64,000 bases of DNA from the NCBI GenBank assembly GCA_020053735.1, contig JAGVMP010000011.1:496001-560000 (forward strand). Direction: 5' to 3'. Positions 3,773-46,290 of the stretch are shown one piece after another. Position numbers and translations under genes: made by a program. The notes beneath the pieces were generated by a model. It had not been told where the DNA came from. It ran no database searches and saw only the letters and a program-made list of their open reading frames with translations. Source of the stretch: Pseudomonadota bacterium. Lineage in GTDB: Bacteria; Pseudomonadota; Gammaproteobacteria; Burkholderiales; Methylophilaceae. Positions within the stretch are counted from its first letter, which is position 1, and each line of letters begins with the position of its first letter.

Positions 3773-4474
3773 ATGCATAAAATAGGGTTTATTATTATTT
3801 TCAGTCTGTTAGCAATGTCTAACATGGCCGCTGCTGAAGGCAAAAAAATTGTAAAGTGGGTGGATAGCAAGGGCGTGACGCAATATGGCGATAAATTGCC
3901 TGCCAGCGATGCTGGGCGTAATAATTCCGAAATGAACACACAAGGTATGGTGGTTAAAAAGAACGTCACCGCCAATAAATCGAATGATTTACAAGACCAA
4001 CAAAAATTAGCGCAAGAACGCAAAGATAAAATCTTGCTAGCCTCTTACACCAAAGCAGAAGAAATTGATTTGGCAAAAGAGCGTAATTTAGAATTAGATA
4101 AAGCGGCTTTACAAGCGTTAACGCAACAAAAAATTAACATCACCAATAGAACAGCGCGTAATAACAAATTGGCTGATGGTTTTAAAGCACGCAAAAAACC
4201 TTTACCTGCTTACTTAACTGATGAATTGAAATTGTCTAAATCAGAAATAGCCAACATCGACAAACAAATGGCGCAGCGCAAATTGAGCATGGCAGCCACT
4301 AACACGCGTTATACCGAAGAGAAAGTACGCTTTATTGCATTAAAACAACCTACGCTGCAAGCAGCGCCACAAGCCAATGCTGGCACAGACTCTAGCCCTG
4401 CCAGCAAAGAAACCGCTGGCACCAACGCGATAAAAGCCAATAGCATGGCAGCTACGATGACCACTCAGCCTTAG
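3773..4474 (+). CDS. DUF4124 domain periplasmic protein
   Basis: 233 aa with a Sec signal peptide (hydrophobic residues 4-18, cleavage near AAA-EG). Residues about 25-45 (KIVKWVDSKGVTQYGDKLPA) are the DUF4124 signature, a small beta domain found at the N-terminus of many betaproteobacterial periplasmic proteins, usually rendered as K-x-Y-K-W-x-D-x-x-G-x-x-x-Y-x-D-x-P. The rest is Lys/Ala/Gln-rich, predicted helical, with a low-complexity tail of Ala, Thr and Ser. No enzymatic motif is visible and the function is unknown. It converges on gatB with 15 bp between the stops. Confidence 0.8.
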   Translation: MHKIGFIIIFSLLAMSNMAAAEGKKIVKWVDSKGVTQYGDKLPASDAGRNNSEMNTQGMVVKKNVTANKSNDLQDQQKLAQERKDKILLASYTKAEEIDLAKERNLELDKAALQALTQQKINITNRTARNNKLADGFKARKKPLPAYLTDELKLSKSEIANIDKQMAQRKLSMAATNTRYTEEKVRFIALKQPTLQAAPQANAGTDSSPASKETAGTNAIKANSMAATMTTQP

Positions 4475-4489
4475 GCTTGGTGTAACAAG

Positions 4490-6031
4490 CTAACTCAGTT
4501 TTTTCTTTAAAATCTCATTCACTTGCGCGGGGTTAGCTTTGCCTTTGGACGCCTTCATCGCCTGACCCACCAGCGCATTAAACGCTTTTTCTTTACCGGC
4601 TTTAAACTCTTCCACCATGGCAGGGTTGGCTTTTAAAACTTCATCGATGATTGCTTCAATCGCGCCGCTGTCCGATTCTTGTTTTAAGCCTTTAACTGCG
4701 ATAATCGTGTCAACTTCACCTTCGCCTGACCACATTGCTTCAAATACTTGTTTAGCAGCATTATTTGAGATGGTGCTGTCGCTAATGCGTTTGAGCAATT
4801 GCGCCAGTTGTAGAGGTGAAATTGGTGAGTTTTCAATAGACACATCTTCTGAGTTTAATCTAGCTGCTAATCCACCCATAATCCAATTTGCAGCCATTAC
4901 AGAATCAGCTCCGTCATCAACACACTCAATAAAATATTCCGAAGTTGCTAGATTGCTACCAATTGCCTCCGCTATATCATCTGGAAGACTATATGTATTT
5001 CTTAATGTAATCTTGCGCAAAGTTTTACGAAGGGTAATTTCCAATGATGCATCTAAATCGGAGTCATCTTGGGCATCTCGAATCGGCTGAAAAATCTTAA
5101 ATCGCGCAATCAATGAATTTGGGAGTATTGGCATAGTAGCTTTGACGCGAGCCTTATCAGCCGCTGTGACTTCTAACGGTAGTAAATCGGGGTCGGGAAA
5201 ATAGCGGTAATCGTTGGCTTCTTCTTTAGAGCGCATCGCGCGCGTTTCGCCCGTATCTGGATTGAACAACACCGTTGCCTGTTGAATTGTGCCGCCATCT
5301 TCAAGCGTTTCAATTTGCCAGCGGGTTTCATATTCAATCGCTTGCGTCATAAACTTGAATGAGTTGAGATTTTTAATCTCGCGGCGTGTGCCAAATTTTT
5401 CTTGGCCTTTTGGTCGCACCGACACGTTGACATCACACCTAAAACTACCTTCTTGCATATTGCCATCGCAAATGTCGATCCACTGCACAAGTTCATGTAA
5501 CTTTTTGGCATAGGCAACTGCTTCTGCAGCGCTACGCATGTCAGGCTCAGTCACAATTTCTAGCAATGGTGTACCAGCGCGGTTTAAATCAATACCGCTC
5601 ATGCCTTCTACAGCGCCATGTACTGACTTGCCTGCATCCTCTTCCAAATGCGCACGGGTGATATTAATTACTTTTTCATAAGCGGCTTTTTTGCCGTTGG
5701 CGGGCACTTGAATCGTCACCGCACCTTTGCCCACTACCGGTAGCTCAAACTGGCTAATTTGATAGCCTTTTGGTAAATCTGGGTAAAAGTAATTTTTGCG
5801 ACTAAATACTGAGCGTGCTGGGATGTCGGCATTGATGGCCAAACCAAACTTAATGGCACATTCCACTGCTTGCTTGTTTAATACTGGCAACACGCCTGGT
5901 AGCGCAATACTCACTTCATCTGCCTGTGTATTTGGCTCTGCACCGTATTTTATCGATGCCCCACTAAAAATTTTAGTGTTGGTCTTTAATTGGGTATGGG
6001 TTTCTAACCCAATAACGACTTCCCATTCCAT
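4490..6031 (-). CDS. gatB: Asp-tRNA(Asn)/Glu-tRNA(Gln) amidotransferase subunit B
   Basis: 513 aa. GatB binds misacylated Glu-tRNA(Gln) or Asp-tRNA(Asn) and activates it for amidation by GatA-derived ammonia. The N-terminal kinase-like core is clear: [12 protein letters not shown] at 4-15, [19 protein letters not shown] at 78-96, [19 protein letters not shown] at 146-164 and EIKNLNSF at 218-225. The C-terminal YqeY-like tail ([20 protein letters not shown]) is also normal. The length exceeds the usual 475-490 because residues about 312-372, in the helical domain, are expanded and divergent, with a short internal repeat ([14 protein letters not shown]). The start ATG overlaps the restriction endonuclease stop in TAATG (6031), so translation is probably coupled. 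It is separated from gatA by the two restriction-modification genes. Confidence 0.95.
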
Positions 6032-6801
6032 TAAGAGTTTTCTTTCTTGCTTTTTTTGGCAGCACGAGGCTTAGTTGGTTTAAGCTGCGACGAGTTGAAC
6101 CTTACAATCTTTTCCCAATTAACACTTCCGTCAGGAAGGCAATATTCTTCCAAAAATAACTTGGTAAAGCGGTTAGTTGCCTTATCGTATTCGATTAAAA
6201 AGGCTTCGTTACGCTGTTTTGCCTTGTATCCTAAGGGTTCGATTAGGTCTAGATAAAGCTGGCTGTCCTTACTGACAAGCGTCCAGAATCTTTCGCCGCA
6301 ATATTTAAAATAATCACCTTTGTCAGGCTTGTTATCTCGCCCGTAACAACAACCATTCACTGCTACGACATTTTTCACAGTACCATTTTGTCGCAAAATC
6401 ACTTTAGCTTTGCGAAAATTGTCTTTCATCTTATTAATTTGACTACTGTTGCCCCATTTGGGCCCTGACTTGATTGCAAGGATATAGCGCGCTCCGTCCA
6501 AGTCAAATTCTAGGTCAATTCCCTCCGTGCTGGATTTGCGTCCGCCACAAGCAAGGCTGCATGCATAAACTGCGACGTTCTCCAGGAAGGCTCCAAAAAT
6601 GGTCTCCTCCTGTGATGACAAATATGCATCCAAAATCTTGCTTACTAATTCAGCAGCGGTATTAATATCTTTTGCTTTAAATAAATAAGGATTTTTACGT
6701 AGTAATACGTTGTCCAGCTTGAGACTTTCTAGACTTTCCAATCGGCGTTGATGAAAAGCGGGGATATTCTCCTCAATGAATTTAGTAATTTCAGCTTTCA
6801 T
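6031..6801 (-). CDS. Type II restriction endonuclease (PmeII-like)
   Basis: 256 aa. The central block has [20 protein letters not shown] then [20 protein letters not shown], a PD-(D/E)xK-type nuclease core with Asp96, Glu98 and Lys111 as likely catalytic residues. It is followed by [20 protein letters not shown] and a segment FKYCGERFW. From memory this resembles endonucleases labelled PmeII family; the family name is a recollection, the nuclease fold an inference from motif and context. The C-terminus is strongly basic ([13 protein letters not shown]). It starts inside the end of the methyltransferase gene (11-base overlap) and its TAA overlaps the gatB ATG. No controller (C) protein gene is present. 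The recognition site cannot be read from the sequence. Confidence 0.75.
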
Positions 6802-7651
6802 GCGTCACCCCATATTTAGCTCGTTTCTGTAACAAGGCTAACTGCTTATCTTCAACTTTATCACGCGCCATTTCGCAGTATTCTGCTAAAACATCTATCC
6901 CAACTGCATTCCTAGCTAATTTTTTGGCGACCTCTACGCTCGTGCCAGAACCAACAAATGGGTCTAAAACCCAATCACCCTCGTCGGTGAATAGTTTGAT
7001 AAACCATTCAGGTAAGGCTTTAGGGAAAGCAGCGCTATGATTTTTATTGCCGCACTCTGTTGCAAAATGCAAAACATTTGTCGGGTAAGCCATCGTGCGC
7101 TCAGCCCAGTTAGCAATGTTTTTCCCAAAACCACTACCTACCTGAGAGTCATAACGCACCACATCGTTTTTGCCTAACGATTTGAGTCTGGTTTCCGCCC
7201 AATCTCCCATTGGCACCATGACTGCTTCTTGATTCATTTTGAATTTACGAGATTTGGTAAAGTGCAAACAGCGTTCCCAAGAATCTCGAAATCGATTTGG
7301 CCATTTACCCGGGTAAGAATTTTTCTTATGCCAGATATACTCGTCCGTCCAATACCAACCCTGTTTACGTAAAGCCAAAATCAATTCAAGAACGTAAGTA
7401 TGCCGCTCGCCATTCTCTGCTTTTTCTTTAATGTTAAGAACGAATGATCCTGCTGGCTTAAGCACTCGCAAAAATTGCTCGGAACGAGGTAGAAACCACT
7501 CGACATATTGTTCTGGCTTCACGCCACCATAAGTCTGAGCTCGACGGTCAGCATAAGGCGGAGATGTAACAATCAAATCAAAGCTATTATCTGCAAAGGA
7601 TTTCAAGACTTCAGCGCAGTCTCCCTGAATGATTTCGGTCTTATGACTCAT
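6791..7651 (-). CDS. Site-specific DNA methyltransferase (N4-cytosine or N6-adenine, beta-type order)
   Basis: 286 aa of the N6_N4_Mtase family. The catalytic motif [11 protein letters not shown] lies at residues 25-33 and the AdoMet-binding motif [12 protein letters not shown] at about 228-238. This IV-before-I order, with the variable target-recognition stretch between them, defines the beta class. SPPY is the form most often seen in N4-cytosine enzymes, but N6-adenine methylation cannot be excluded. It would protect the host against the endonuclease encoded immediately downstream. The ATG lies within the last codons of gatA (CATGAGTCATAA), an 11-base overlap, so the gene appears to be expressed as part of the gatCAB transcript. 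Confidence 0.9.
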
Positions 7652-9116
7652 GCAACTCCTTGGGCATGTACGTATGCCAATCTGTCACTTGTTGATACGC
7701 GTGCGCAACGTCTAACATGCGCGCTTCATCAAAATAATTACCCATTAATTGCAAGCCAACAGGCAAGCCATTACTAAAACCTGCTGGAATACTCATCCCT
7801 GGCAAGCCTGCCAAATTGGTGGCAATGGTATACACATCTTGCAGATACATCGCGACTGGATCATCGGCTTTTTCGCCAGCTTTAAATGCGGTAGAAGGTG
7901 CCGTTGGGCCCATGATAATGTCGCATTGTTTAAATGCCTGGGTAAAATCATCGGCAATTAAACGGCGAATTTGCTGCGCTTTGAGGTAATAGGCATCGTA
8001 ATAACCCGCGCTTAATACATAAGTCCCAATCAATATGCGGCGTTTTACTTCTGCACCAAACCCTTCCGCGCGTGATTTCATGTACATGTCCATTAAGTCG
8101 TCATACTCTGCTGCGCGGTGACCATAACGCACGCCGTCGTAGCGCGATAGATTTGAGCTGGCTTCAGCAGGGGCAAGTACGTAATACACAGGAATCGACA
8201 GTTGGCTATTAGGCAATGAAATGTCTACTGTTTCTGCACCCAGTTTTTTATATTCATTGATGGCCGCCTGCACAACCGCACCAACATTGGCATCTAGACC
8301 ATCGGCAAAGTACTCTTTTGGCAAGCCGATACGCAAACCCTTTAATGGCTGTGCGCCCTGCATATTCGCTAAGCCACGCGTGTAGTCCTCTTTAGGGCGA
8401 TTCAAACTGGTGGAATCACGCGCATCAAATCCTACCATCACGTTCATCATTAAGGCGCAATCTTCTGCACTTTTAGCCATTGGGCCAGCTTGGTCAAGGC
8501 TGGAAGCAAACGCAATCATGCCGTAACGCGACACCAACCCGTATGTGGGTTTTAAACCTGTAAAACCACACAGTGAGGCAGGTTGCCGTATAGACCCGCC
8601 AGTATCAGTGCCAGTTGCTGCCGCGCACAACCTCGCAGCAACTGCTGCCGCACTACCGCCACTACTACCACCTGGTACGCGGTCAACATCCCACGGATTT
8701 TTAACGCCACCAAAATAACTGGTTTCATTGGATGAACCCATGGCGAATTCATCCATATTAGTTTTGCCCAGATTCACCGCACCTGCTGCATCAAATTGGG
8801 AAATTACATGCGCGTCATAAGGCGCAACAAAATTAGCCAGCATCTTCGATCCACACGTAGTTGGCCAATCTTTTGCACAAAAAATATCTTTTTGTGCAAA
8901 TGGGATTCCTGTCAGCGGTTCCGCTGACCCGTTAGAAATTCTTACATCAGCAGCTTTGGCTTGTGCCAACGTTTTTTCATTATCTAACGCAATATAAGCA
9001 TTAATACTGGGGTTATATTTTGCGATGCGATCTAGAAACGTTTGTGTCATTTCTACGCTGGAAATTTGCTTGCTAGCCAGCATGTGGCCAAGCTGTTTTA
9101 AACTGTTGTTAATCAT
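7641..9116 (-). CDS. gatA: Asp-tRNA(Asn)/Glu-tRNA(Gln) amidotransferase subunit A
   Basis: 491 aa, normal for the GatA amidase, which hydrolyses glutamine and channels ammonia to GatB. The Ser-cisSer-Lys catalytic set is visible: Lys76 in [10 protein letters not shown], the glycine/serine-rich [13 protein letters not shown] near residue 150, and [12 protein letters not shown] near 170. The amidase signature [16 protein letters not shown] follows. It lies 9 bp after gatC and its 3' end overlaps the methyltransferase start. Together with gatC and gatB this implies that Gln-tRNA or Asn-tRNA is made by the indirect pathway. A glnS or asnS is not in the window, so which one cannot be told. Confidence 0.97.
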
Positions 9117-9125
9117 ATTACTTTT

Positions 9126-9440
9126 CTATTCAATCACTTGTGGCACTAAATATAAACCACCTTCGACAGCCTTTTCCACCGAGCCGTTACCAATTTTAGG
9201 TGCATTAACTTGAAACGCCTCACGCATATTGGTTTGGGTCACTACGTCTTCGCGCAATCTTTGTACCACATCTTGCGAATGAGACATTGGTGTAATGCCT
9301 GTCGTATCCACCGCTTGCATTTGCTCGATTAGGCCAAGAATTCCAGTGAGCTTGGTGAGCGTTTGCGTGGCTTCTTGCTCACTAATTTCAAGTCGCGCCA
9401 AATGTGCAATGCGCTTTATATCGGAGATGTTGAGTGCCAT
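9126..9440 (-). CDS. gatC: Asp-tRNA(Asn)/Glu-tRNA(Gln) amidotransferase subunit C
   Basis: 104 aa, the normal size for the small GatC subunit that wraps around and stabilises GatA-GatB. The family motif [17 protein letters not shown] near the N-terminus and the C-terminal [20 protein letters not shown] are both typical. It is the first gene of the gat operon and is divergent from mreB, with a 182-bp intergenic region holding both promoters and a 15-bp direct repeat. Confidence 0.95.
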
Positions 9441-9500
9441 AAAATAAATTCGATGATTATTGGATATTTTTTGTTTGTAACAATATGTAAATGTGACTAA

Positions 9501-9534
9501 ATTTTAGCCACAATACTTAATTTTAGCCACAATA
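9501..9534. repeat. 15-bp direct repeat between gatC and mreB
   Basis: ATTTTAGCCACAATA occurs at 9501-9515 and again at 9520-9534, a 19-bp period, in the divergent gatC/mreB promoter region. It could be a small tandem duplication or a pair of protein-binding sites. The spacing is close to two helical turns. Confidence 0.7.
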
Positions 9535-9616
9535 TAAGTTATTATACCTTGATTTTAAAGCGTGGCTTTAGTACTCACCACAAGTCATGTAAACGTTTGC
9601 GCAAAGCATAGGATAA

Positions 9617-10666
<1,050 letters not shown>

Positions 10667-23814: not shown

Positions 23815-26800
23815 CTACTGATCCTCTATAAGCTCTCGCCAGATAACGCGATGGTTTGTAAACCCAGACTGACTTCCGCCTGTAAAACTAGGCTGTACTG
23901 GCGGGAAGCTCGGTGTCGGGTTATCCGCTGTAACGATATTTACCACTGGTTTCCCTTTTACATACAACACATTAATACCAACAATTGGTGCGTTTGTTCT
24001 ACTTGCAACCACATTGCCTGAGACAGCTGCTCCAGTTCTATAATCCAAGAAATTCAGCCATCCATATCCACCTGGTGAACACACAGTGTTTGAAGGTACC
24101 GTTGTAGGTAACAACAAAGTACCAAACACAAGCTGCGCGGGGACATTTTGTCGTTCGCCAGAATCAGGGAAGTCGATATACCAACCCCTGTCGGTTGTAA
24201 AACTTACAGGGTTAGATGGTGTCTGCATACTTCTAGTCGCTGTAAGCGTATCATTTACCAAGACCTGATTCACCATGGCAGAAGAGGTGCGTGGGTTATC
24301 TAATGTTGCAGGCGTAGAGGTCGCATCATCACTTATCGCGTAGATAGTTTGTTGTTGCGTATTAGTAAGGTCACTTGTACCTAAATAACGCCCAGTGCCC
24401 ACATATAACACTCTTTTACCACTAATATCAGCCAGTTCAGGCCGAACTGTAATCGGTTGAGGATTGCCACTTGGATCTTTAAGTACCGCAACCTTAAACG
24501 GATTAGTGGCAGATTGTGCGCTGTTAATATCAAAGCGCCAGAGGTTGCCAAGTAAATCACCACCATAAACAAAAACTGCCGTATTATTAATTACACCATC
24601 TGCAATATATGCATTTATCTTAGCCAACCCACTCGGCGTAGTGGCACTACCTACTCCCGTAGAATACTTGCTGATTACAGCACCTGTAGTGGCATTTAAC
24701 ACATACATATAACCAGTACCAGTATTGTTATACCCCGAAGTTACTAGGGCTACCCAAGTGCCATCTGCTTTTTTAGTAATAATAGGGTTGCCATAAGAAT
24801 AACCCATATCACCATCATCTGCGGTATCAAATTCCCACAACAATGTTGGAGTAGCAGGGTTAGTCACATCTAGTGCAAAGTAGCCTTGCCCACCACCATT
24901 TAAACCACCAACAAGAATCGTTCTCCAAACCGCTGTCGTGGCAGAAGTGCAACTTGCAGTACATATATCGTTCACGACGATGTCACCATTGACATAATAT
25001 GAATGCGAAACACCATTGCCATAATTTTTATCAGCAAGCTTCCACATATTATCAAGCACCATAGTAGGCACATACGCCCAGCGCTCTTGACCATTAGTTG
25101 CATTAATAGCATGCAACATACCATCGTTCGCTCCAATATAAACTGTGCCTTCACGTGTGGCTTGTGCAGTCTTAAATGAACTGGGTGATGTATTTGGGCC
25201 ATAGCCAGGGTCGCTAAAATTGGCTTTTGGAGCACCCACGTACACAGGTGTTGAGTCCACCAAATCGCCAAGCACAGTCTCACGCAATCGATAAATTCTG
25301 TTATCAATTAATCCATCTACGTTACTAGCACGGTCTTCAAAACCATTATTGCCCCGTAAAAAGTTGACTAAGCTGGCACTGTTTACTGAGACACGTTGTG
25401 CTGTAGATAGAGAACTCCATTGACTCAAATTTGTTGATAAGAAGCTATTGTCAAAGTTTCCATCTTTACCCACTGCGACTAAGTTACCACTAGTGAAACT
25501 GGCTAAAGTGCCTGCTACATTCATATAGACATTGCGTGTATCGTTGGTATCACTCACAAAATCTTGCATAGTACCAGTACAAGAAGTTGACACTTCTACC
25601 TTACAATCAGTGCCATCAAGCACGCCTGGGGCGCTACATGTTGAAGCAGTAGAACTCGGTGTAACGCATTGGTATGTCGTGCTACCGCCAGCTGTACTTG
25701 CTACGACGCTACTTGGCGCAGCACAGGTGTCCGCAATTACATTTTCTAGACACCAAGTTGCATCTTCATTCACTTTACCAGTGTCGGTATTCACGGTTCT
25801 TGATTCAAGGTTACCGATCCATTTTACACTTGTGTAACTAGCCACATAAGTAAAGTTATCGCCAGATACAGGGTTTAGCGTACTGGTTGCAGCAGCAGCA
25901 CCAGCACCTACTTTAGCTTTAATAGAGCTTAATGCCTCGCTTAGAGACGATGATAATTGATTTGGGTTTTTAGCACTAAAATATGTACCTTGACCATTTA
26001 CAGCAGCATGCCACAAATCATCTACTGCAGTTTGTGTGTTTTCTATTGGTTTCGGCCAGTCCCGCGTACCTTGCATTAATTCGTAAAAATCGCCTTCATC
26101 TGCTGTTTTATAGTCAGAGGTATAAGTGAGCGATGCATCCACACCTAACCCTAGCGTAAAAGTTGTCATGTGTTGTTTCAGATTATTATCCGTAGTTGTC
26201 ACAAACACATTATTTGTGCAAACATCAAAGCCAGCACCTAACGCACCAGTACAATTACCTAAAGCCGAGGTTCGCAAGTCAGTATCATAATAGTACTTTG
26301 CCCCATCGGCCAAACTGTTGGAGGACGTTGTCGCTACAGGGCCTTCATACATAGGTCTAGGCGTAGTACCACCATCCATGTTACCAATCGCTGTTGAGCC
26401 ATCAACTTCCAAGCCTCCTGGGTCACTAAACCAGTAGCCATCTGTCGTCAAAATCGTAAAATTTTGTTGACATGAATATTGCACTGGGTCTGAAGCATTA
26501 CCCACTGCGCTAGCACCTTTACCTGCAAAAATACGGCCTACAGTTGATAATGATCGTCTTAATGGGGTGCTGCCACTTGGAATGGTAGCAAATAATTTGG
26601 TATACCAATCGGCCTTTTGCGTCGCAGCATATTGTGCTATTGATAAGTAATTACTGCTAGCACCATTAATCGTGATGAACCCTACGCGAAAGCGCGTATC
26701 AATGGTTTTAAACGCAAGACTGGTAGATGATTTCATCATTTGCATACGGGTACGATAGTAACTGTACCAGTTGGCAAAGTTTGTCATCTCCTCATCATAG

Positions 26801-28503
26801 CTACAGACTGTTCCTGCACAATCTGTTCTACTAGCCGCCTTAGTGAAAGTTGTTGCTGGTAATACATCTACACGCTGGAATGTAGTTACAACTGGCGTAC
26901 TAGAAAACTGTGTAATTAAATTCGGGATGGTGTAATTTTTTACACCGTCGTTGGTGCCCCCAGACATGCCAGTAATTGGCGTAATGGAAAGTCTGCCACT
27001 TGGGTCATTTTCAGTATAAGTGAGTGCAAGATTATTTGCTGCCCCTGTATTGACGGCAGTGATTGTGATTACTGGCCGACTTGCCCCATTAGATGTTGCG
27101 GTAAAATCTGGGCTAGAAACGAAACTGTTAATTTGCGACACAAGTGCATTGGCAAGCGCATTTCTACTAGCCGAATTATTCGAGCCACCTGTTACGTTGA
27201 TTGTTGCACCTAAAATTTGGGTTGTGCCTACTCTAATGCCTGTCACGCTACTGGTGGTTCTTGCACTATCAATCGTAAGCGAACCTGTGGCCTTATTGCC
27301 TAACTGGACAGCGGTAGGATAAGGTGTCGCAGTGGTAAATGCAATCGTGCCTGTAAATGCACCCGCTGCAACTGGAGTTATCTCCACCACATCACCTAAG
27401 GCGACCGCAGTGTAATCTGGGGCGCTTATTTCAGTATTAATGGCAGTTGCAATATTAGCTGCCAACGTATTTCTTTGAGCTGCCAAGGTGGTATTTGCGA
27501 TGGTAAGCGCGGGAGACGGAACCAAAGGAATAATTCTAACTCCGTCAACTGTAACTGTAGCTACTGTCATTGGTGTTGGCGATACGCAAGAAGGTTGTCC
27601 AGCAGCGCCGCAAGCTGTTGTTTCGGGTAGTATTTTAATACGGCCCAAACTATTAGGAACTATGCCTGCCCATTTTATAAACTCATGGTCTGTTACTTCT
27701 GAATACTTTCCTTGACAGCCTGACCCTGACAGTACATTGGCTGCCGAAGTACACCAGCGTATTTTCGCAGGAAATGTATGGGTAGCTGTTGGTGCCGTAG
27801 CGGTAATACAGCTAGTTAAATTTTTATTAGTACAATACTCACCAGCCGAAACGGTATAATAAAATGGATAACCAAAAACATTATAGTCTTGATTAAATGA
27901 CGCTGATGGATTACCAGAAACAACGTTAGGATAAATATATTGGCTATTTTTTTTGCATACTGATGGATCATTCGCAACAGCAGTAGTCACTCCAGTTGAT
28001 GTATTACACCATACAATATCTGGATAGCCATCTGTCAACCCAGCATTAGGCACTAAGCGTTGATTGCCCCCACTCCCAGTTAAGGCATCCCTAGGCACTA
28101 CAGTCCAACCAGCCGTATTCGCACTAGTCATGGAGGTTTTAGATGTGCCATCAGCATTAACAGCAGGACTGTATAAAGTCTCAGGATTATAATAAATAGA
28201 ATTAAATTCACTCGCATTATATGGAGGATCTCCATACTCACAAGCCGCACTGAATGCACCACTAGTACTTGTGTCACTTTTACATTTATTATTGAAAATT
28301 ATGTAATCTGGCATATAGTCCCTGCCCATGCTGCCCGAATTATCTAAAATGTACATTAAATTGGGCAACACCTCACTGGTAGTTGCGCTTACTAGTGGCG
28401 CAGTACCAAGATCTGTAAGTGCCGCATTTGCGGAGCCTATAGAAACTGCAAATAACCCAATATTAAGGATTTGCAAAAATTTGTTTTTAATTGTTGGTGT
28501 CAT
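23815..28503 (-). CDS. pilY1: Type IV pilus tip adhesin / assembly factor PilY1
   Basis: 1562 aa with a signal peptide ending near ANAA (residue 28) and a GGAG ribosome site. Residues 52-60 (LDNSGSMGR) are a VWA MIDAS motif (DxSxS). The VWA fold resumes at about 680 (NFTILTTDGYWFSD). The C-terminal third is the PilC/PilY1 beta-propeller, e.g. TVYIGANDGMLHAINATNGQ, WRTILVGGLNGGGQGYFALD and FDTADDGDMGYSYG, the last an acidic, probably Ca2+-binding loop. Residues 316-390 and 420-498 are two related modules (IAT-IN-IS-APDYTA / LVSQINSFVSSPDFTA) inserted in the VWA region. PilY1 caps the minor pilin complex and promotes pilus extension and adhesion. Confidence 0.93.
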   Translation of the reverse strand: MTPTIKNKFLQILNIGLFAVSIGSANAALTDLGTAPLVSATTSEVLPNLMYILDNSGSMGRDYMPDYIIFNNKCKSDTSTSGAFSAACEYGDPPYNASEFNSIYYNPETLYSPAVNADGTSKTSMTSANTAGWTVVPRDALTGSGGNQRLVPNAGLTDGYPDIVWCNTSTGVTTAVANDPSVCKKNSQYIYPNVVSGNPSASFNQDYNVFGYPFYYTVSAGEYCTNKNLTSCITATAPTATHTFPAKIRWCTSAANVLSGSGCQGKYSEVTDHEFIKWAGIVPNSLGRIKILPETTACGAAGQPSCVSPTPMTVATVTVDGVRIIPLVPSPALTIANTTLAAQRNTLAANIATAINTEISAPDYTAVALGDVVEITPVAAGAFTGTIAFTTATPYPTAVQLGNKATGSLTIDSARTTSSVTGIRVGTTQILGATINVTGGSNNSASRNALANALVSQINSFVSSPDFTATSNGASRPVITITAVNTGAANNLALTYTENDPSGRLSITPITGMSGGTNDGVKNYTIPNLITQFSSTPVVTTFQRVDVLPATTFTKAASRTDCAGTVCSYDEEMTNFANWYSYYRTRMQMMKSSTSLAFKTIDTRFRVGFITINGASSNYLSIAQYAATQKADWYTKLFATIPSGSTPLRRSLSTVGRIFAGKGASAVGNASDPVQYSCQQNFTILTTDGYWFSDPGGLEVDGSTAIGNMDGGTTPRPMYEGPVATTSSNSLADGAKYYYDTDLRTSALGNCTGALGAGFDVCTNNVFVTTTDNNLKQHMTTFTLGLGVDASLTYTSDYKTADEGDFYELMQGTRDWPKPIENTQTAVDDLWHAAVNGQGTYFSAKNPNQLSSSLSEALSSIKAKVGAGAAAATSTLNPVSGDNFTYVASYTSVKWIGNLESRTVNTDTGKVNEDATWCLENVIADTCAAPSSVVASTAGGSTTYQCVTPSSTASTCSAPGVLDGTDCKVEVSTSCTGTMQDFVSDTNDTRNVYMNVAGTLASFTSGNLVAVGKDGNFDNSFLSTNLSQWSSLSTAQRVSVNSASLVNFLRGNNGFEDRASNVDGLIDNRIYRLRETVLGDLVDSTPVYVGAPKANFSDPGYGPNTSPSSFKTAQATREGTVYIGANDGMLHAINATNGQERWAYVPTMVLDNMWKLADKNYGNGVSHSYYVNGDIVVNDICTASCTSATTAVWRTILVGGLNGGGQGYFALDVTNPATPTLLWEFDTADDGDMGYSYGNPIITKKADGTWVALVTSGYNNTGTGYMYVLNATTGAVISKYSTGVGSATTPSGLAKINAYIADGVINNTAVFVYGGDLLGNLWRFDINSAQSATNPFKVAVLKDPSGNPQPITVRPELADISGKRVLYVGTGRYLGTSDLTNTQQQTIYAISDDATSTPATLDNPRTSSAMVNQVLVNDTLTATRSMQTPSNPVSFTTDRGWYIDFPDSGERQNVPAQLVFGTLLLPTTVPSNTVCSPGGYGWLNFLDYRTGAAVSGNVVASRTNAPIVGINVLYVKGKPVVNIVTADNPTPSFPPVQPSFTGGSQSGFTNHRVIWRELIEDQ

Positions 28504-28535
28504 TTTAAGACTCCTGAATATCTAATAAATAGAAA

Positions 28536-29159
28536 TTAATAAATAAAAGCTTGAACATAACTAAAAGTATTTTTAGGCCCCGCCACACGCGCAGTTACAC
28601 GATATACCACGGCATCCGACCCACCAGTACTTGCATCGTAACCTCCGCCACCCGAACCGCCACCCTCGCTTCTAGCGCCTTTTGAGTTTGCAGCAGAGTC
28701 ACCCGTGCCCACTAAACATTTTTCTGCTTTTTGATTATCTGGAACATTGGCTGAATTACACATGCGCTGAATAATAAATCGCGTCTCATTCTGACTTAAA
28801 TCGTAAACATCATTTGTCACTACAAACGAATTTGCGCCCCAAGTATCTGAATCAAATGCTTTTTTAGCTGTATCGAAAGCTGGGTCAAAACTCGCAAAAT
28901 ATCCGCCAGAACTGGTTTCTAAAGTGGCTGCATTTGCTTTGATATGTTTGTAGGCGCCCGCGATACCACTCTCGGCTGAAAACATAGTCGATTGCCTAAA
29001 CGCTAAATTACCAGCTACTAGCACGCCACTATCTACTGAGCGCACTAAAGCAGCAGCTGCAAGCGACATCGCGACCAAAGCAATTAAGGCAATAAACAAC
29101 ACCAAGCCCTTTTGCTGTTTGACCAGACGGCCATTACTTTGCATTTTAAGTTTCATCAT
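28536..29159 (-). CDS. pilX: Type IV minor pilin PilX
   Basis: 207 aa from the ATG pair at 29159, chosen because GGTGAG lies 6 bases upstream. An ATG at 29180 adds seven residues but has no ribosome site. The prepilin leader is basic (LKMQSNGRLVKQQKG) and is followed by the hydrophobic LVLFIALIALVAMSLAAAAL; the fifth residue of the mature protein is not the usual Glu, as in other PilX proteins. The rest is a short globular domain with a Gly/Ser-rich stretch SEGGGSGGGGYDASTGGSD near 165. It sits between pilW and pilY1, the conserved order. Confidence 0.85.
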   Translation of the reverse strand: MMKLKMQSNGRLVKQQKGLVLFIALIALVAMSLAAAALVRSVDSGVLVAGNLAFRQSTMFSAESGIAGAYKHIKANAATLETSSGGYFASFDPAFDTAKKAFDSDTWGANSFVVTNDVYDLSQNETRFIIQRMCNSANVPDNQKAEKCLVGTGDSAANSKGARSEGGGSGGGGYDASTGGSDAVVYRVTARVAGPKNTFSYVQAFIY

Positions 29160-29189
29160 GTTCTCACCCATGCCTTTCATTTTGCTGAT

Positions 29190-30416
29190 TTATAATTGCG
29201 GCGTAGCAGCCAAAATATTTCTAAGTGGAACAACAACTTCATATACACGATAGCGATAACGATTCCAATCAGCACCTACGTCAGTACCTGCTAAATTGAC
29301 ATCGGCACCCCAAGCACACACTCTAGCCGGGCCAGTAGCAGTACCTGTGCAAGCCTGACTGACAACCTCTTTTTCTAGTAAACTATTTCTAGCAACAACT
29401 GCTAGACGCACAGCCTTAATACGGTTTCGATTTGCTACGTTTGGTGTTGCCCAAGCGCCAGTGGCATCTCTCCACTCAGCGACAATTTCACTGTTAATCG
29501 TTGCAGAAACACCATATTGCGCCTGTAAATTCACGATATCGCTGATGACAGGGGTATTATTTCTGCGCAATTGATTACCATTGACATCGAATGTGATTTG
29601 CCTGACCTGCCCCAAACATGCAAGACGATCTCCTACTGCCATGCCACTGTTCGAAAGCACATTAATTTCGTTCGGTGTAGCCTCAAGTAATGCGTTAGTA
29701 GTAGCAGCGGTTAATTTTGTGGCAACACATGCCGTGCTTGACTTAACCTCTTTGGTGACCAACACTACATCCCCCGCGCGACAACCCATATTATTTCTTA
29801 CCCCAACAAAATTTGGTGGGGTCACATTGGTCACTGCTGTAGGTAGCGCGCCACGTGTGGTTGTACCATAGCGAATAGCAATGCTATCGCCATTAACCCC
29901 ATCGGTAATGGTCACTGGGGTAACAAGGGCATTTAAACCAATTGTGACATCTGCTGTAGTGGGGTCACCGTCCAAATCTAACGCCAAAGTAGAAGTAGAG
30001 TCACATCTGAGTGCAGAAAATACCTCGCCAGCCTGAACTTTAACTGCACCAGCTGCCACTTTAGCCTCATAGGCCGCCAATAGAGCTGCTTGTGCGGTAA
30101 GTATTTCCGCCTCTGTTTTACCCGTATAATCCTCGAAGGTCATCTCATTAGGTAGCACATCTATCGTAGGCATCGTGCCGCTCATTAATGGCATGCCGTA
30201 ACCAGCAGACTGTAACTCTCTTTGAATCGTAAAAAGCGCGATACTACCGTTGGTTTGTGCATCTGCTATGCCTGTAGTACTACGTTTGGTGCCTTCAAAA
30301 GAGGCGAAGGTTTGCATAATGACCACTGTTGCTACTAGCCCAATCACCAAGCCGACCATCAGCTCGACTAGCGAGAAACCTGCCTGATGAAAGATATTAT
30401 TTGTCGTTTTTTTCAT
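29190..30416 (-). CDS. pilW: Type IV minor pilin PilW
   Basis: 408 aa. Prepilin peptidase site and helix HQAGFSLVELMVGLVIGLVA with the conserved Glu at mature position 5. A long C-terminal globular domain includes RELQSAGYGMPL and KAVRLAVVARNSLLEKEV, typical of PilW. Starts 2 bp after pilV ends. It is part of the tip complex that initiates pilus assembly. Confidence 0.9.
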   Translation of the reverse strand: MKKTTNNIFHQAGFSLVELMVGLVIGLVATVVIMQTFASFEGTKRSTTGIADAQTNGSIALFTIQRELQSAGYGMPLMSGTMPTIDVLPNEMTFEDYTGKTEAEILTAQAALLAAYEAKVAAGAVKVQAGEVFSALRCDSTSTLALDLDGDPTTADVTIGLNALVTPVTITDGVNGDSIAIRYGTTTRGALPTAVTNVTPPNFVGVRNNMGCRAGDVVLVTKEVKSSTACVATKLTAATTNALLEATPNEINVLSNSGMAVGDRLACLGQVRQITFDVNGNQLRRNNTPVISDIVNLQAQYGVSATINSEIVAEWRDATGAWATPNVANRNRIKAVRLAVVARNSLLEKEVVSQACTGTATGPARVCAWGADVNLAGTDVGADWNRYRYRVYEVVVPLRNILAATPQL

Positions 30417-30418
30417 GA

Positions 30419-30838
30419 TTATCTCGCAGTAAACACGGTGGTAACAGCCTCATAGCCATGTTTCTCACCGCCAATAGCCTCACCCTCACCAGCATCTGTG
30501 CCTTTTGCTTTCCATGTCACACGAAAACGCAAACGACCATCAGACAGCGAGTTAACATACATTTTACCGTTTGGCAATGTGTCAACATCAAGCGCCATGC
30601 CTTGCCCGAAGCCATATGGTTTCGTCATCATTTCACCTAAATATTGTTGCACCACATAGGCTGCCTCAGCCCGATATGTTGCGTCGGTAGTATTTTTAAT
30701 CATTGCAGCTTGTAAACCAGAAATAGCCAATATACCAAATGAAAATATCACCACTGCAATCAAAGCTTCCAACAAAATAGAGCCCTGCGCTTTTATTTTT
30801 GGCAGGCTTGCTACTAAGACAAGTTTATTTTTCATCAT
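30419..30838 (-). CDS. pilV: Type IV minor pilin PilV
   Basis: 139 aa. Leader KIKAQG followed by SILLEALIAVVIFSFGILA, a prepilin helix with Glu at the fifth mature position, followed by GLQAAMIKNTTDATYRAEAA typical of PilV. The C-terminal part is a small domain. Two adjacent ATGs (30838, 30835) are possible starts. It lies 31 bp after fimT. Confidence 0.9.
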   Translation of the reverse strand: MMKNKLVLVASLPKIKAQGSILLEALIAVVIFSFGILAISGLQAAMIKNTTDATYRAEAAYVVQQYLGEMMTKPYGFGQGMALDVDTLPNGKMYVNSLSDGRLRFRVTWKAKGTDAGEGEAIGGEKHGYEAVTTVFTAR

Positions 30839-30869
30839 GCTGTTCTCTAAAGTTAATTACATCTACTCA

Positions 30870-31391
30870 TCAACATTTACGCGGATCAGTAGCAGCTGCA
30901 ATAGGATCACACATGCGCACATTGCCACCGGCGCCAACAGTCACACGTAAATTACGGTCTGCTCCAGCCAAACTCAAATCAACTTGACCAAGCTGACCCG
31001 CAGCCGTGGACTTGATACCCAGATTAGTGAATATTATTTCGCTAGCCCCGCCTGGAGTCGGCGTAACCGCCACCATCGATGTGCCGCCCTCTTCATTGCT
31101 TCGTGATGCAATTACGCCGCAAATCGCTACAGTTACACATTGCACTGTCCAAGCTGAGTTGGCACCAAGTGTAAACTTTACTTGTGTGTTTCGCATGAGC
31201 GCCTCAGAGCGCGCTTTTTGGATGCCATTCAATATGGATTCTGTTGCTGTACGCACTCTAGTATTTTGAATCCACGCATTGTAGCTAGGCATGGCGACTG
31301 CAGCAGTGATACCAATAATTGCCACAACAATCACCAGCTCTACCAAACTGAAGCCATCAGACTCGGAGATGTTTCTGAGTGAACTTAGCAC
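30870..31391 (-). CDS. fimT: Type IV minor pilin FimT/FimU-like (GspH family)
   Basis: 173 aa. Prepilin motif DGFSLVELVIVVAIIGITAA, then NAWIQNTRVRTATESILNGI and QKARSEALMRNTQV, the GspH/FimT pattern. The Cys pair near residues 132-140 region is followed by a conserved C-terminal RMCDP-type Cys (VRMCDPIA). It starts 7 bases inside pilE, so the two are probably translationally coupled. Confidence 0.88.
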   Translation of the reverse strand: MLSSLRNISESDGFSLVELVIVVAIIGITAAVAMPSYNAWIQNTRVRTATESILNGIQKARSEALMRNTQVKFTLGANSAWTVQCVTVAICGVIASRSNEEGGTSMVAVTPTPGGASEIIFTNLGIKSTAAGQLGQVDLSLAGADRNLRVTVGAGGNVRMCDPIAAATDPRKC

Positions 31392-39424: not shown

Positions 39425-40891
39425 TCAATTCTTCAGGGCATCCATTATTTTTTGATGCACGCCACCAAAGCCGCCATTACTCATGACTAAGATATGGTCG
39501 CCCGATTTTGCATTATTTGCAATGGCTTGCACTAATTTTTCCAAATCATCAAAGGCGTGGCTTTTGTGAGCAATACTTTGCAGCGCTTCTGCTGCATCCC
39601 ACCCTAAATTTGCGCCATAACAAAACACTAGATCTGCCTGCTTTAAGCTAGCTGGCAAGGCGGCTTTCATCACACCCAGTTTCATGGTGTTGCTACGCGG
39701 TTCTAGCACGGCAATGATTCTGGCATCTCTAGAGTCAGCATCCAGCTTGGCTCGCAGCCCGGCCAATGTGGTCTCGATAGCGGTGGGGTGATGCGCAAAG
39801 TCATCATACACGGTGATATTATTGAGCACGCCTTTAATTTCCATGCGACGTTTTACGTTTTTAAATTCGCCTAGCGCCTCAATGGCAATGCACGGTGCAA
39901 CACCTACATGCCGTGCAGCGGCAATGCAGGCAACTGCGTTCATACGGTTGTGTTCACCCAGCAAATCCCAGCTGACATTGCCTTGGCGCTCGCCTAAACT
40001 TTCATTTTCTTTTCTAAAGTACACATCAAAACGGCCTTGCGCATCTACATTTTGCACTTGCCAGCCTGATTTTTTGGCTGATTCAGCCACACCAAAATAC
40101 TCCAAATTACTCCAACAGCCTTTGGCAATCACACGCTCCAAGCTATCTTGTAGATTGCTTACTACCAAACCTTGCTGCGGAACTGTTCTAACAAGGTGAT
40201 GGAACTGCTTTTCAATGGCCGCTAAGTCGTCAAAAATATCGGCATGGTCAAACTCTAAGTTATTCAAAATGGCCGTACGTGGACGATAGTGGACAAATTT
40301 TGAACGTTTATCAAAAAATGCCGTGTCGTATTCGTCGGCTTCAATCACAAAAAACGGCGACCCTTCGACAAGCTCAGGGCGAACGGAATTTTCTTGCTCC
40401 CGTTCGTGGTGAGCCTGTCGAACCATGAGCGGCGGCACCTGCGGTAACCGTGCTGAAACACCAAAATTCTCAGGGACCCCTCCAATTAAAAAACCCGGTG
40501 CCAAGCCTGCATATTCCAAAATCCACGCCAACATGGATGATGTTGTCGTTTTGCCATGCGTACCCGCAACCGCCAAAACCCATTTACCTTGTAACACATT
40601 CTCTGCCAGCCACTGTGGGCCCGAGATATACGGCAAACCTTGATTGAGTATTTCCTCCATCAACGGATTACCGCGTGAAACCACGTTGCCAATCACGTAA
40701 ATATCAGGGTTTAACTTAGTTTGCTCAGGTGAAAAACCTTCAATCAGTTCTATACCCTGCGCCTCAAGCTGCGTACTCATTGGCGGATATACATTGGCAT
40801 CACAGCCCGTGACGCGATGCCCCGCCTGCTTGGCCAATACCGCGATGCCACCCATGAATGTACCGCAAATCCCTAAGATGTGAATGTGCAT
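39425..40891 (-). CDS. mpl: UDP-N-acetylmuramate:L-Ala-gamma-D-Glu-meso-DAP ligase Mpl
   Basis: 488 aa. Mpl recycles the tripeptide L-Ala-gamma-D-Glu-meso-DAP onto UDP-MurNAc. The ATP loop AVAGTHGKTTTSSML (about residues 107-121), the FFVIEADEYDTAFFDKRSKF segment, NNLEFDHADIF and the ligase C-domain ending with YGANLGWDAAEA are intact. Residues about 151-178 (including MVRQAHHERE and RPELVEG) have no counterpart in E. coli Mpl and come from a palindromic repeat. The rest aligns in frame, so the enzyme may still be active. Confidence 0.93.
   Translation of the reverse strand: MHIHILGICGTFMGGIAVLAKQAGHRVTGCDANVYPPMSTQLEAQGIELIEGFSPEQTKLNPDIYVIGNVVSRGNPLMEEILNQGLPYISGPQWLAENVLQGKWVLAVAGTHGKTTTSSMLAWILEYAGLAPGFLIGGVPENFGVSARLPQVPPLMVRQAHHEREQENSVRPELVEGSPFFVIEADEYDTAFFDKRSKFVHYRPRTAILNNLEFDHADIFDDLAAIEKQFHHLVRTVPQQGLVVSNLQDSLERVIAKGCWSNLEYFGVAESAKKSGWQVQNVDAQGRFDVYFRKENESLGERQGNVSWDLLGEHNRMNAVACIAAARHVGVAPCIAIEALGEFKNVKRRMEIKGVLNNITVYDDFAHHPTAIETTLAGLRAKLDADSRDARIIAVLEPRSNTMKLGVMKAALPASLKQADLVFCYGANLGWDAAEALQSIAHKSHAFDDLEKLVQAIANNAKSGDHILVMSNGGFGGVHQKIMDALKN
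40364..40422. repeat. Palindromic repeat inserted in frame in mpl
   Basis: TTCGACAAGCTCAGGGCGAA plus CGG (40364-40386) pairs with 40400-40422 over a 13-base loop; 19 of 23 positions are complementary. In the coding strand the arms read PELVEG and VRQAHHER. It resembles the palindromic repeats widely scattered in bacterial genomes, here kept in frame. Confidence 0.85.
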
Positions 40892-44766: not shown

Positions 44767-46290
44767 TTACTGTGTATCACCACGTCGATATTGCACCGCC
44801 TCGGCAATTTGATTGGGTTTAATGGCGGCATCACCTGCTAAATCAGCAATGGTTCTGGCGACTTTTAGAATACGGTGATAGGCGCGAGCGGATAAATTCA
44901 AACGTGAAATGGCCGTTTTAAGTAGCGCCATCCCTGCATCATCAGGCTGACAAAATGCATCAATCTCTAAACTACCCAAGGCAAAATTTGCTTTGCCTTG
45001 GCGTCTAAGTTGCAGTTCACGCGCATGTTCAACTCTTGCACGAATGATATCGCTACTTTCTGAGTTGGTGGCTGAGGTGAGTTCACTTTCTTTCAACGCG
45101 GGTACTTCAATGTGCAAATCAATCCTATCTAATAATGGCCCAGAAATTTTGGCTTTATAGCGCGCCACATTGTCTGGTGTACATCTGCACTTATTATTGT
45201 AGTGGCCCAAATAACCGCAGGGGCAAGGATTCATGGCGGCGAGTAGCTGGAACTTGGCAGGGAAATCTGCCTGTCTAGCCGCACGGCTAATAGTGATGTG
45301 GCCACTTTCTAATGGCTCACGCAGAACCTCTAATACTTTACGGTCAAATTCTGGCAGCTCGTCCAAAAACAACACACCATGATGTGCCAGAGAAATTTCA
45401 CCTGGCCGCGGAATACCCCCACCTCCCACCAGCGCTACGCCAGAGGCAGTGTGATGTGGACTTCTAAATGGTCGGCGTTTCCAGTTTTCTAATTTGTAAT
45501 TACCGTTAAGCGATTGTATCGCGGCACTTTCTAACGCCTCAGACTCTGACATGCTGGGTAAAATGCCAGCGAAACGGCCTGCAAGCATACTTTTACCAGT
45601 GCCGGGCGGGCCGCTCATCAGTACACTGTGACCACCTGCTGCGGCAATTTCCAAAGCGCGCTTTGCTTGCGATTGTCCTTTGACTTCATTGAAATCAGGA
45701 TAAGGAAGTATTTGGAAAACTGCAGTTGATTCAAACTGCTCAAGCTCAGTATGTCCACTTAAATGCGCGCAAACCTCTAGCAAGGTATTTGCTGGGTAAA
45801 TAATGGCATCTTTCACCAAGCTGGCTTCTCGTGCACTTAAATGGGGCAGAATAAAAGCGCGTTTGGCTTGTGCACTAATTTCTTGCACGGATTGAGTGTG
45901 CACCATATGATAAGTCATCGCTAATGCACCACGAATTGGCCGTAACTCACCCGTCAGCGCCAGTTCACCCGCAATTTCATAATTGCTAAGGGATTCCTTT
46001 GGTATCTGCCCACTTGCGGCCAATATACCCAAGGCGATAGGCAAATCGTAACGACCGCTTTCTTTTGGTAGGTCTGCTGGGGCCAGATTAACAGTGATGC
46101 GGCGGGCTGGAAACTCAAACTGTGCTGTTTGTATGGCGGCACGCACGCGGTCTTTACTCTCTTTCACCTCGGCTTCGGGCAGGCCGACAATCGTAAAACT
46201 GGGCAGGCCATTGGCAAGGTGCACTTCTACCACCACCTCAGGCGCATCCATGCCGCTAAGCGCACGACTATAAAGCACAGCCAACGACAT
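44767..46290 (-). CDS. comM: ComM/YifB AAA+ ATPase (Mg-chelatase-like)
   Basis: 507 aa. N-terminal ribosomal-S5-like fold (LPSFTIVGLPEAEVKESKDR), AAA+ domain with Walker A GPPGTGKSMLAGRF near residue 230, Walker B GVLFLDELPEF, and a zinc-like Cys cluster CPCGYLGHYNNKCRC. ComM is a branch-migration helicase that assists integration of DNA in natural transformation, so the cell may be competent. The N-terminal SLAVLYSRALSGMDA is also typical. The ATG overlaps the ubiK stop (TAATG). Confidence 0.93.
   Translation of the reverse strand: MSLAVLYSRALSGMDAPEVVVEVHLANGLPSFTIVGLPEAEVKESKDRVRAAIQTAQFEFPARRITVNLAPADLPKESGRYDLPIALGILAASGQIPKESLSNYEIAGELALTGELRPIRGALAMTYHMVHTQSVQEISAQAKRAFILPHLSAREASLVKDAIIYPANTLLEVCAHLSGHTELEQFESTAVFQILPYPDFNEVKGQSQAKRALEIAAAGGHSVLMSGPPGTGKSMLAGRFAGILPSMSESEALESAAIQSLNGNYKLENWKRRPFRSPHHTASGVALVGGGGIPRPGEISLAHHGVLFLDELPEFDRKVLEVLREPLESGHITISRAARQADFPAKFQLLAAMNPCPCGYLGHYNNKCRCTPDNVARYKAKISGPLLDRIDLHIEVPALKESELTSATNSESSDIIRARVEHARELQLRRQGKANFALGSLEIDAFCQPDDAGMALLKTAISRLNLSARAYHRILKVARTIADLAGDAAIKPNQIAEAVQYRRGDTQ

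Follow-up and report, generated by a model that had tools for sequence, protein, structure and literature searches.

A type II restriction-modification pair seated without gaps between gatA and gatB, a probable recurrent cargo site inside the gatCAB operon

We analyzed a 64,000-nucleotide (nt) stretch of a Methylophilaceae genome (contig JAGVMP010000011.1, positions 496,001 to 560,000; hereafter the window), in which the gatCAB operon carries two further genes, one for a DNA methyltransferase (MTase) and one for a restriction endonuclease (REase). The five frames lie on the minus strand in the order gatC-gatA-[MTase-REase]-gatB. The first gene of the operon, gatC (9126..9440; TIGR00135, 7.5e-25), is separated by 9 bases, without overlap, from gatA (7641..9116; TIGR00132, 6.5e-185), and the last gene is gatB (4490..6031; TIGR00133, 4.2e-154); all three matches are above the profile cut-offs. 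From gatA to gatB, zero intergenic space is left, and the MTase gene (6791..7651) and the REase gene (6031..6801) are the sole frames between them. gatA and the MTase gene share 11 nt (ATGAGTCATAA, 7641..7651), the MTase and REase genes share another 11 nt (ATGAAAGCTGA, 6791..6801), and the REase stop codon lies over the gatB start codon in TAATG (6029..6033). An earlier note, made from these letters, had reported that an MTase and an REase gene separate gatA from gatB on the minus strand and had described the three overlaps; direct reading bore out both statements to the base, with all five frames at the coordinates given there. In addition, an AAGGAG hexamer that resembles a ribosome-binding site lies 4 nt 5′ of the MTase ATG (7656..7661). 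This layout is more than a chance arrangement, because the residues conserved in the family are kept and the same five-gene order recurs in two Gallionellales genomes.

The same note had taken the two genes for a type II restriction-modification (RM) pair, which appears right, as an REase of family PF14511 adjoins an MTase of family PF01555 with intact motifs. The REase matched PF14511 (RE_EcoO109I; 4.5e-84) with 281.6 bits against a curated cut-off of 22.5, whereas NCBIfam profiles gave zero matches to it; most of its 13 plasmid-borne relatives are annotated as PmeII family. An alignment of 83 rows was built from 80 loci, L112 and the window, which entered twice; in it, E74, D96 and K111 were present in all 83 rows and E98 in 82, and by the PD-(D/E)XK pattern these four are inferred to be the catalytic residues. 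Although a single-sequence phmmer comparison with EcoO109I gave only an E value of 0.62, the three best Protein Data Bank (PDB) matches of an AlphaFold2 model of the REase (mean predicted local distance difference test score, 81.3) were all EcoO109I chains, with 1wte as the best (E values of 4.7e-9 to 5.3e-8, template modeling scores by query length of 0.61 to 0.66, and 18 to 20% identity). EcoO109I recognizes RGGNCCY (PMC7337904). The MTase matched PF01555 (N6_N4_Mtase; 1.8e-43) and thus belongs to the N4/N6 class; its motifs TSPPY and DPFVGSGT (FxGSGT) are intact in the alignment. Its closest relative in the PDB, M.PvuII, acts on N4 of cytosine, and we would therefore guess that it makes N4-methylcytosine. 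Furthermore, the RM proteins of the window and of Gallionella share 72 to 86% identity even though their fourfold-degenerate sites agree at only 0.23 to 0.30, which points to purifying selection on both genes; both look functional.

To place the insert exactly, its two ends were compared with relatives that lack it. The 29 nearest relatives include 21 in which, without any insert, the gatA stop and gatB start codons overlap by one base (TAATGG), the same form as the REase/gatB joint of the window. The uninserted relatives have a variable gatA tail, mostly with a purine-rich stretch immediately 5′ of gatB, and the AAGGAG of the window occupies the place of this stretch. Where uninserted relatives such as L008 read AAAAGGAATTGAATAATGG, the window reads AAGGAGTTGC, then the cassette from its ATG onward, and then CTTAATGG; in other words, the gatA tail of the window, ATGCCCAAGGAGTTGC, is followed by the MTase ATG, and at the far end the REase stop codon yields CTTAATGGAATGG, the native start of gatB. 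This comparison places the cassette between the apparent ribosome-binding site of gatB and the gatB start codon, so that the MTase gene would take over that site while the REase stop codon rebuilds the TAATG joint. The C-terminal tail of the window GatA (...MPKELHES) is unlike the tails of the relatives, and its last residues (HES) probably derive from the insert. The same insertion point was found when locus L031, which carries the pair, was set against the uninserted L124 (CAAGGAATCTGAACATGACTTGG versus CAGGGAATCGCATGA...AAATAATGACTTGG). A third locus with the pair, L032, begins its cassette in a similar way (ATGA), but gatB there comes after an 80-amino-acid (aa) frame and a gap of 40 bases. 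No direct or inverted repeats pairing the insert ends were found at the insert of the window, which thus lacks flanking duplications or inverted repeats as marks of transposition.

The pair is rare. Among the 187 genomes of the window's family (119 with a completeness of 90% or more and a contamination of 5% or less), the REase was found in the window's own genome (G000) and otherwise as two weak relatives (35% and 31% identity), and at E <= 1e-30 the MTase was found in G000 alone. Among 158 Gallionellaceae genomes, a close relative of the pair occurred in two only; five others matched at 27 to 31% and, like the two weak relatives in the window's family, were classed as not close. Related REase loci were then collected with one genome per species, and the best 80 of 238 were kept. 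The two nearest, L031 and L032, both from Gallionellales, share with the window the order gatC-gatA-MTase-REase-gatB and the neighboring mreB, whereas in the other 78 of the 80 neither gatA nor gatB was matched within the available DNA, which was short for some. An MTase match shares the locus with the REase in 79 of the 80 (the exception being L094). The window, L031 and L032 form one clade in both the REase tree (support 100/99, 81 rows) and the MTase tree (Shimodaira-Hasegawa-like approximate likelihood ratio test, 99; 76 rows). As for the operon itself, the best matches listed (150 per gene) placed both gatA and gatB in 141 genomes of the window's family, 2 of them split across contigs; of the 139 scored, with both matches on one contig and strand, 137 had the gatA and gatB matches at most 85 bases apart, compared with 1612 in G000. 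One genome (G177, genus g21) has gatA about 96 kilobases from gatB on one contig, the sole such case among the 139 pairs.

In Gallionellaceae, by contrast with the other joint of the same operon, the gatA/gatB joint was frequently occupied. At least 350 base pairs (bp) separated the gatA and gatB matches in 34 of 136 paired genomes, while gatC/gatA, the control joint in these operons, reached this distance in 1 of 133 (Fisher test, 2e-10, a statistic that ignores shared descent). These pairs again came from the best matches listed (138 of the 158 genomes with both genes, 2 of them split across contigs), and gatC/gatA was the only control joint compared. Elsewhere in the order, 80 genomes of other families could be paired, and 21 of them likewise had at least 350 bases at gatA/gatB; the survey of the order took in 300 genomes, with gatA matches kept where a gatB match was listed, 95 pairs scored and 1 more split across contigs. 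All 34 Gallionellaceae intervals were read for frames, in some of them from a length of 70 aa upward (120 aa in L161), and so were 19 of these 21 larger gaps (all except G598 and G557).

Reading these intervals revealed diverse cargo, including several kinds of RM genes. Of the 34 in Gallionellaceae, 19 hold a DUF3050-like protein (one by Pfam, the rest by likeness), 4 a protein of about 110 aa, 3 an IS200-like transposase (one confirmed by profile), 1 an unnamed 156-aa protein and 1 a cupin, whereas 6 hold RM genes (G187, G188, G217, G292, G236 and G344). G187 and G188 carry, like G000, the EcoO109I-like pair; G217 (by profile) and G292 (by likeness) carry an N4/N6 MTase with a BglII-type REase; G236 carries a whole type I system together with Abi_2 and FRG genes; and in G344 a BglII-type REase without an MTase follows a protein of 308 aa that itself weakly matches an REase. 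Outside Gallionellaceae, the joint holds a D12 MTase and a type II REase in G462, an MT-A70 MTase and a BglII-type REase in G410, and a putative Uma2 endonuclease in G540. LysE and GNAT genes are further cargo that is not known defense. Altogether, eight gene-complete RM systems of five kinds lie at this joint in four families; two of the five kinds share a BglII-type REase but differ in their MTase. Cargo frames with a family match are codirectional with the operon, in a scan that covered operon-strand frames only. The cargo starts at most 50 bases from gatA in 25 of 29 representatives and ends at most 50 bases from gatB in 20 of the 26 with a placeable gatB start, and 19 of the 26 meet both limits. 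Different defense cargo is thus found between the same conserved genes across genomes, as is expected of a hotspot, and the gatA/gatB joint looks like a recurrent cargo site internal to an operon, which the earlier note had missed.

Two smaller features were also seen at this joint. A protein of about 107 to 135 aa with the motif MxYMCACPAQV, or nearly so, lies between gatA and gatB in several families (L142-L144, L159, L164 and L197-L200); it had zero matches in Pfam (L143 and L198 scanned) or PADLOC (L198 scanned) and is perhaps an old member of the operon. In short Gallionellaceae gatA-gatB intervals (L174, L175 and L178-L180), HRDHR/HREK or LCDLC-like peptides appear in varying frames, and these stretches look like a small interspersed repeat.

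The layout bears on how the cassette may be expressed. Since the frames are codirectional and no spacer is left from gatA to gatB, shared transcription is the simplest reading, and the cassette is likely co-transcribed with gatCAB. Consensus scans do not decide the matter: promoter-like matches stood at the level of shuffled sequence (9 versus a shuffle mean of 10.1), and the terminator-like matches are weighed below. The AAGGAG 4 bases 5′ of the MTase start looks strong and the site before the REase gene (GGGGTGACGC) weaker, which fits MTase-first expression. In the PvuII system, a C/R gene overlap was tested and expression proved independent, with no coupling (PMC2997769); an overlap by itself thus does not establish that the frames of the window are translationally coupled.

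Taken together, we propose, with a probability of about two in three, that the window holds a type II RM cassette made of coding frames only, seamlessly placed at a recurrent site of gatCAB and co-transcribed with it, and that cargo at this site turns over by recombination. Most likely, the cassette lacks its own promoter and is read as part of the gatCAB transcript. Translation would begin with the MTase, at the ribosome-binding site in the gatA 3′ end that formerly served gatB; the REase would follow through re-initiation or from its weaker site; gatB would start at the TAATG rebuilt by the REase stop codon; and the pair would act in restriction. Because an ATG-to-TAA frame at this position spares gatA, gatB and the transcript, the joint may tolerate such cassettes, and it may gain, swap and lose cargo, including defense genes, with recombination within or at the gat genes on either side as the probable means. 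A broader idea, which we put forward only tentatively, is that gatA/gatB is a docking site for promoterless defense cassettes in the order, to which at least one RM lineage has become specialized and at which it persists across two families. If so, such cassettes, starting at the captured gatB ribosome-binding site and ending in TAATG, would be expressed by a housekeeping operon steadily, in step with growth and with the MTase ahead of the REase. As for the means of exchange, cargo at hotspots is exchanged by double recombination in flanking core genes, as PMC5635113 describes, and this model fits exchange among near relatives.

Several findings weigh against this proposal. The gatA gene of the window and residues 1-300 of its GatB are genus-like almost up to the insert, with no donor tract found, so that the flanks retain nothing of a donor by which recombination could be shown; and cross-family nucleotide identity of gatA/gatB is 63 to 67%, a divergence of 33 to 37% at which homologous recombination between families is hard. 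For these two reasons, double recombination poorly explains the spread over two families. Recent direct transfer from the sampled Gallionellaceae was rejected because fourfold sites are saturated (0.23 to 0.30), and transfer with long gat flanks was rejected because neither gatA nor GatB residues 1-300 contain a foreign tract; an old residence with many losses, or transfer followed by replacement of the flanks, may instead account for that spread. With regard to transcription, terminator-like matches in window 4300-9800 numbered 10 against a shuffle mean of 5.8 (standard deviation, 2.1), and some of them lie on the operon strand within gatA, the MTase gene and the REase gene. Finally, many of the 34 Gallionellaceae insertions share descent (19 are DUF3050-like), so that independent events are far fewer than 34, and the majority of the cargo is not known defense.

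The earlier note had suggested that the tie to gatB makes the pair difficult to lose without disturbing gatB, a possible addiction-stabilizing arrangement. In such a lock, a deletion would hit an amidotransferase gene, and loss of the MTase would expose the chromosome. The operon layout agrees with this, and some type II RM systems do kill cells that lose them; however, such postsegregational killing needs no location of this kind, and the pair is patchily distributed. Comparison of the gatA-gatB junction in relatives, where 137 of 139 pairs are intact without the cassette, speaks against addiction: gatB is independent of the pair, and a clean deletion would restore the very joint seen in relatives. 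The claim of a lock is therefore unsupported, and we consider it very improbable. It is less easy to dismiss that the pair entered the gat operon in the common ancestor of the two families, descended vertically and was lost cleanly in nearly all lineages, a history that is compatible with the hotspot itself. The single clade matching the host families, the likeness of joint and TAATG between the window and L031, the lack of donor flanks, and the identities between the window and L031, where MTase (86%) and REase (72%) bracket GatA (76%), would all agree with it. On the other hand, 186 of the 187 and 156 of the 158 sampled genomes have no close relative of the pair. Moreover, the RM genes of L031 and L032 have a much lower third-position G+C content than gatA/gatB (0.44-0.55 versus 0.64-0.74) and, between the two loci, a lower fourfold-site identity than the gat genes (0.32-0.35 versus 0.46-0.49, a difference that composition could distort), which suggests that the RM genes were acquired there. 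We thus regard vertical descent from such an ancestor as unlikely.

A neutral account, in which the location brings no benefit and the joint is one of many tolerant spots, draws on the share of cargo that is not known defense (DUF3050, LysE, GNAT, cupin and IS200-like transposase) and on the comparison with a single control joint. It also seems doubtful to us, given the difference between gatC/gatA (1/133) and gatA/gatB (34/136), the five kinds of RM systems at one joint and the location that a single RM lineage shares between two families; the recurrent, co-transcribed cargo site remains our preferred reading.

Set beside known systems, the window pair resembles the EcoO109I/PmeII family in its PF14511 REase and its fold, but the two REases share only 18 to 20% identity, the window pair is embedded in gatCAB, and the N4/N6-class MTase differs from M.EcoO109I, a C5 enzyme. 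In the enterobacterial immigration control region, RM systems are swapped between conserved anchors, yjiA-yjiN (PMC12707154). The gatA/gatB joint is alike in its conserved anchors and RM swapping, and the window insert lacks repeats, but its anchors belong to one operon and its inserts are codirectional and mostly nearly gapless. Core-gene hotspots likewise hold diverse cargo mostly without mobile-element genes, as here, where an IS200-like transposase occurs in 3 of 34 intervals; the gatA/gatB joint differs in lying inside one operon, and it was compared across species rather than within one. Mobile RM units have been described with insertion sequences or long target duplications (PMC3031569); the window pair, too, would have been acquired as a unit, but it has no flanking duplication and no extra frame between gatA and gatB. 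RM hotspots between core genes are therefore known, and it is the operon-internal, seamless and recurrent character of this one that appears new. Our literature search found no description of RM genes inside gatCAB, although most subscription journals were beyond its reach and an earlier report may be in print. Gene entry into operons is rare according to PMC5635113, and the defense hotspots of PMC12707154 have separate genes as anchors or are found at a tRNA gene. That a core-operon joint should repeatedly acquire whole RM systems points to a further route by which defense genes may settle, with a borrowed housekeeping promoter and ribosome-binding site. Furthermore, gatA/gatB is a short and easily searched address at which new defense genes may lie (the 308-aa, 156-aa and about 110-aa proteins), and the timing of MTase before REase in a newly arrived RM system becomes directly testable there.

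Relatives of the pair also occur on mobile elements. Relatives of the REase were found in 13 plasmid records and 1 phage record, each below 60% identity, and a plasmid or phage source was rejected at this distance. Among viral contigs, 21 loci (L202-L222) have MTase relatives (32 to 72% identity), with an REase match in 3, one of them nearly full-length at 55%; phage-borne MTases without an REase could protect against this RM family.

Elsewhere in the window, residues 305 to 400 or so of GatB (4834-5119), a helical segment, match the best relative at only about 29 to 70% per 20 residues, compared with 95 to 100% for residues 1-300. The segment is likewise deviant in three genomes of the same genus (G164, G165 and G166), where it is differently altered, in some with insertions; this amidotransferase subunit may evolve rapidly there or may have exchanged the segment. 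Window genes at 23815-31391, which by the look of their sequences we take to be type IV pilus-like (PilY1/PilW/PilX-like), and a presumably ComM/YifB-like gene at 44767-46290 make natural transformation conceivable in the host. A minus-strand gene at 39425-40891, which we take to encode an Mpl-like ligase, contains at about 40363-40460 an in-frame peptide, VRQAHHERE...RPELVEG, presumably a known repeat translated inside the gene, with one match to a 22-mer at 40363-40384.

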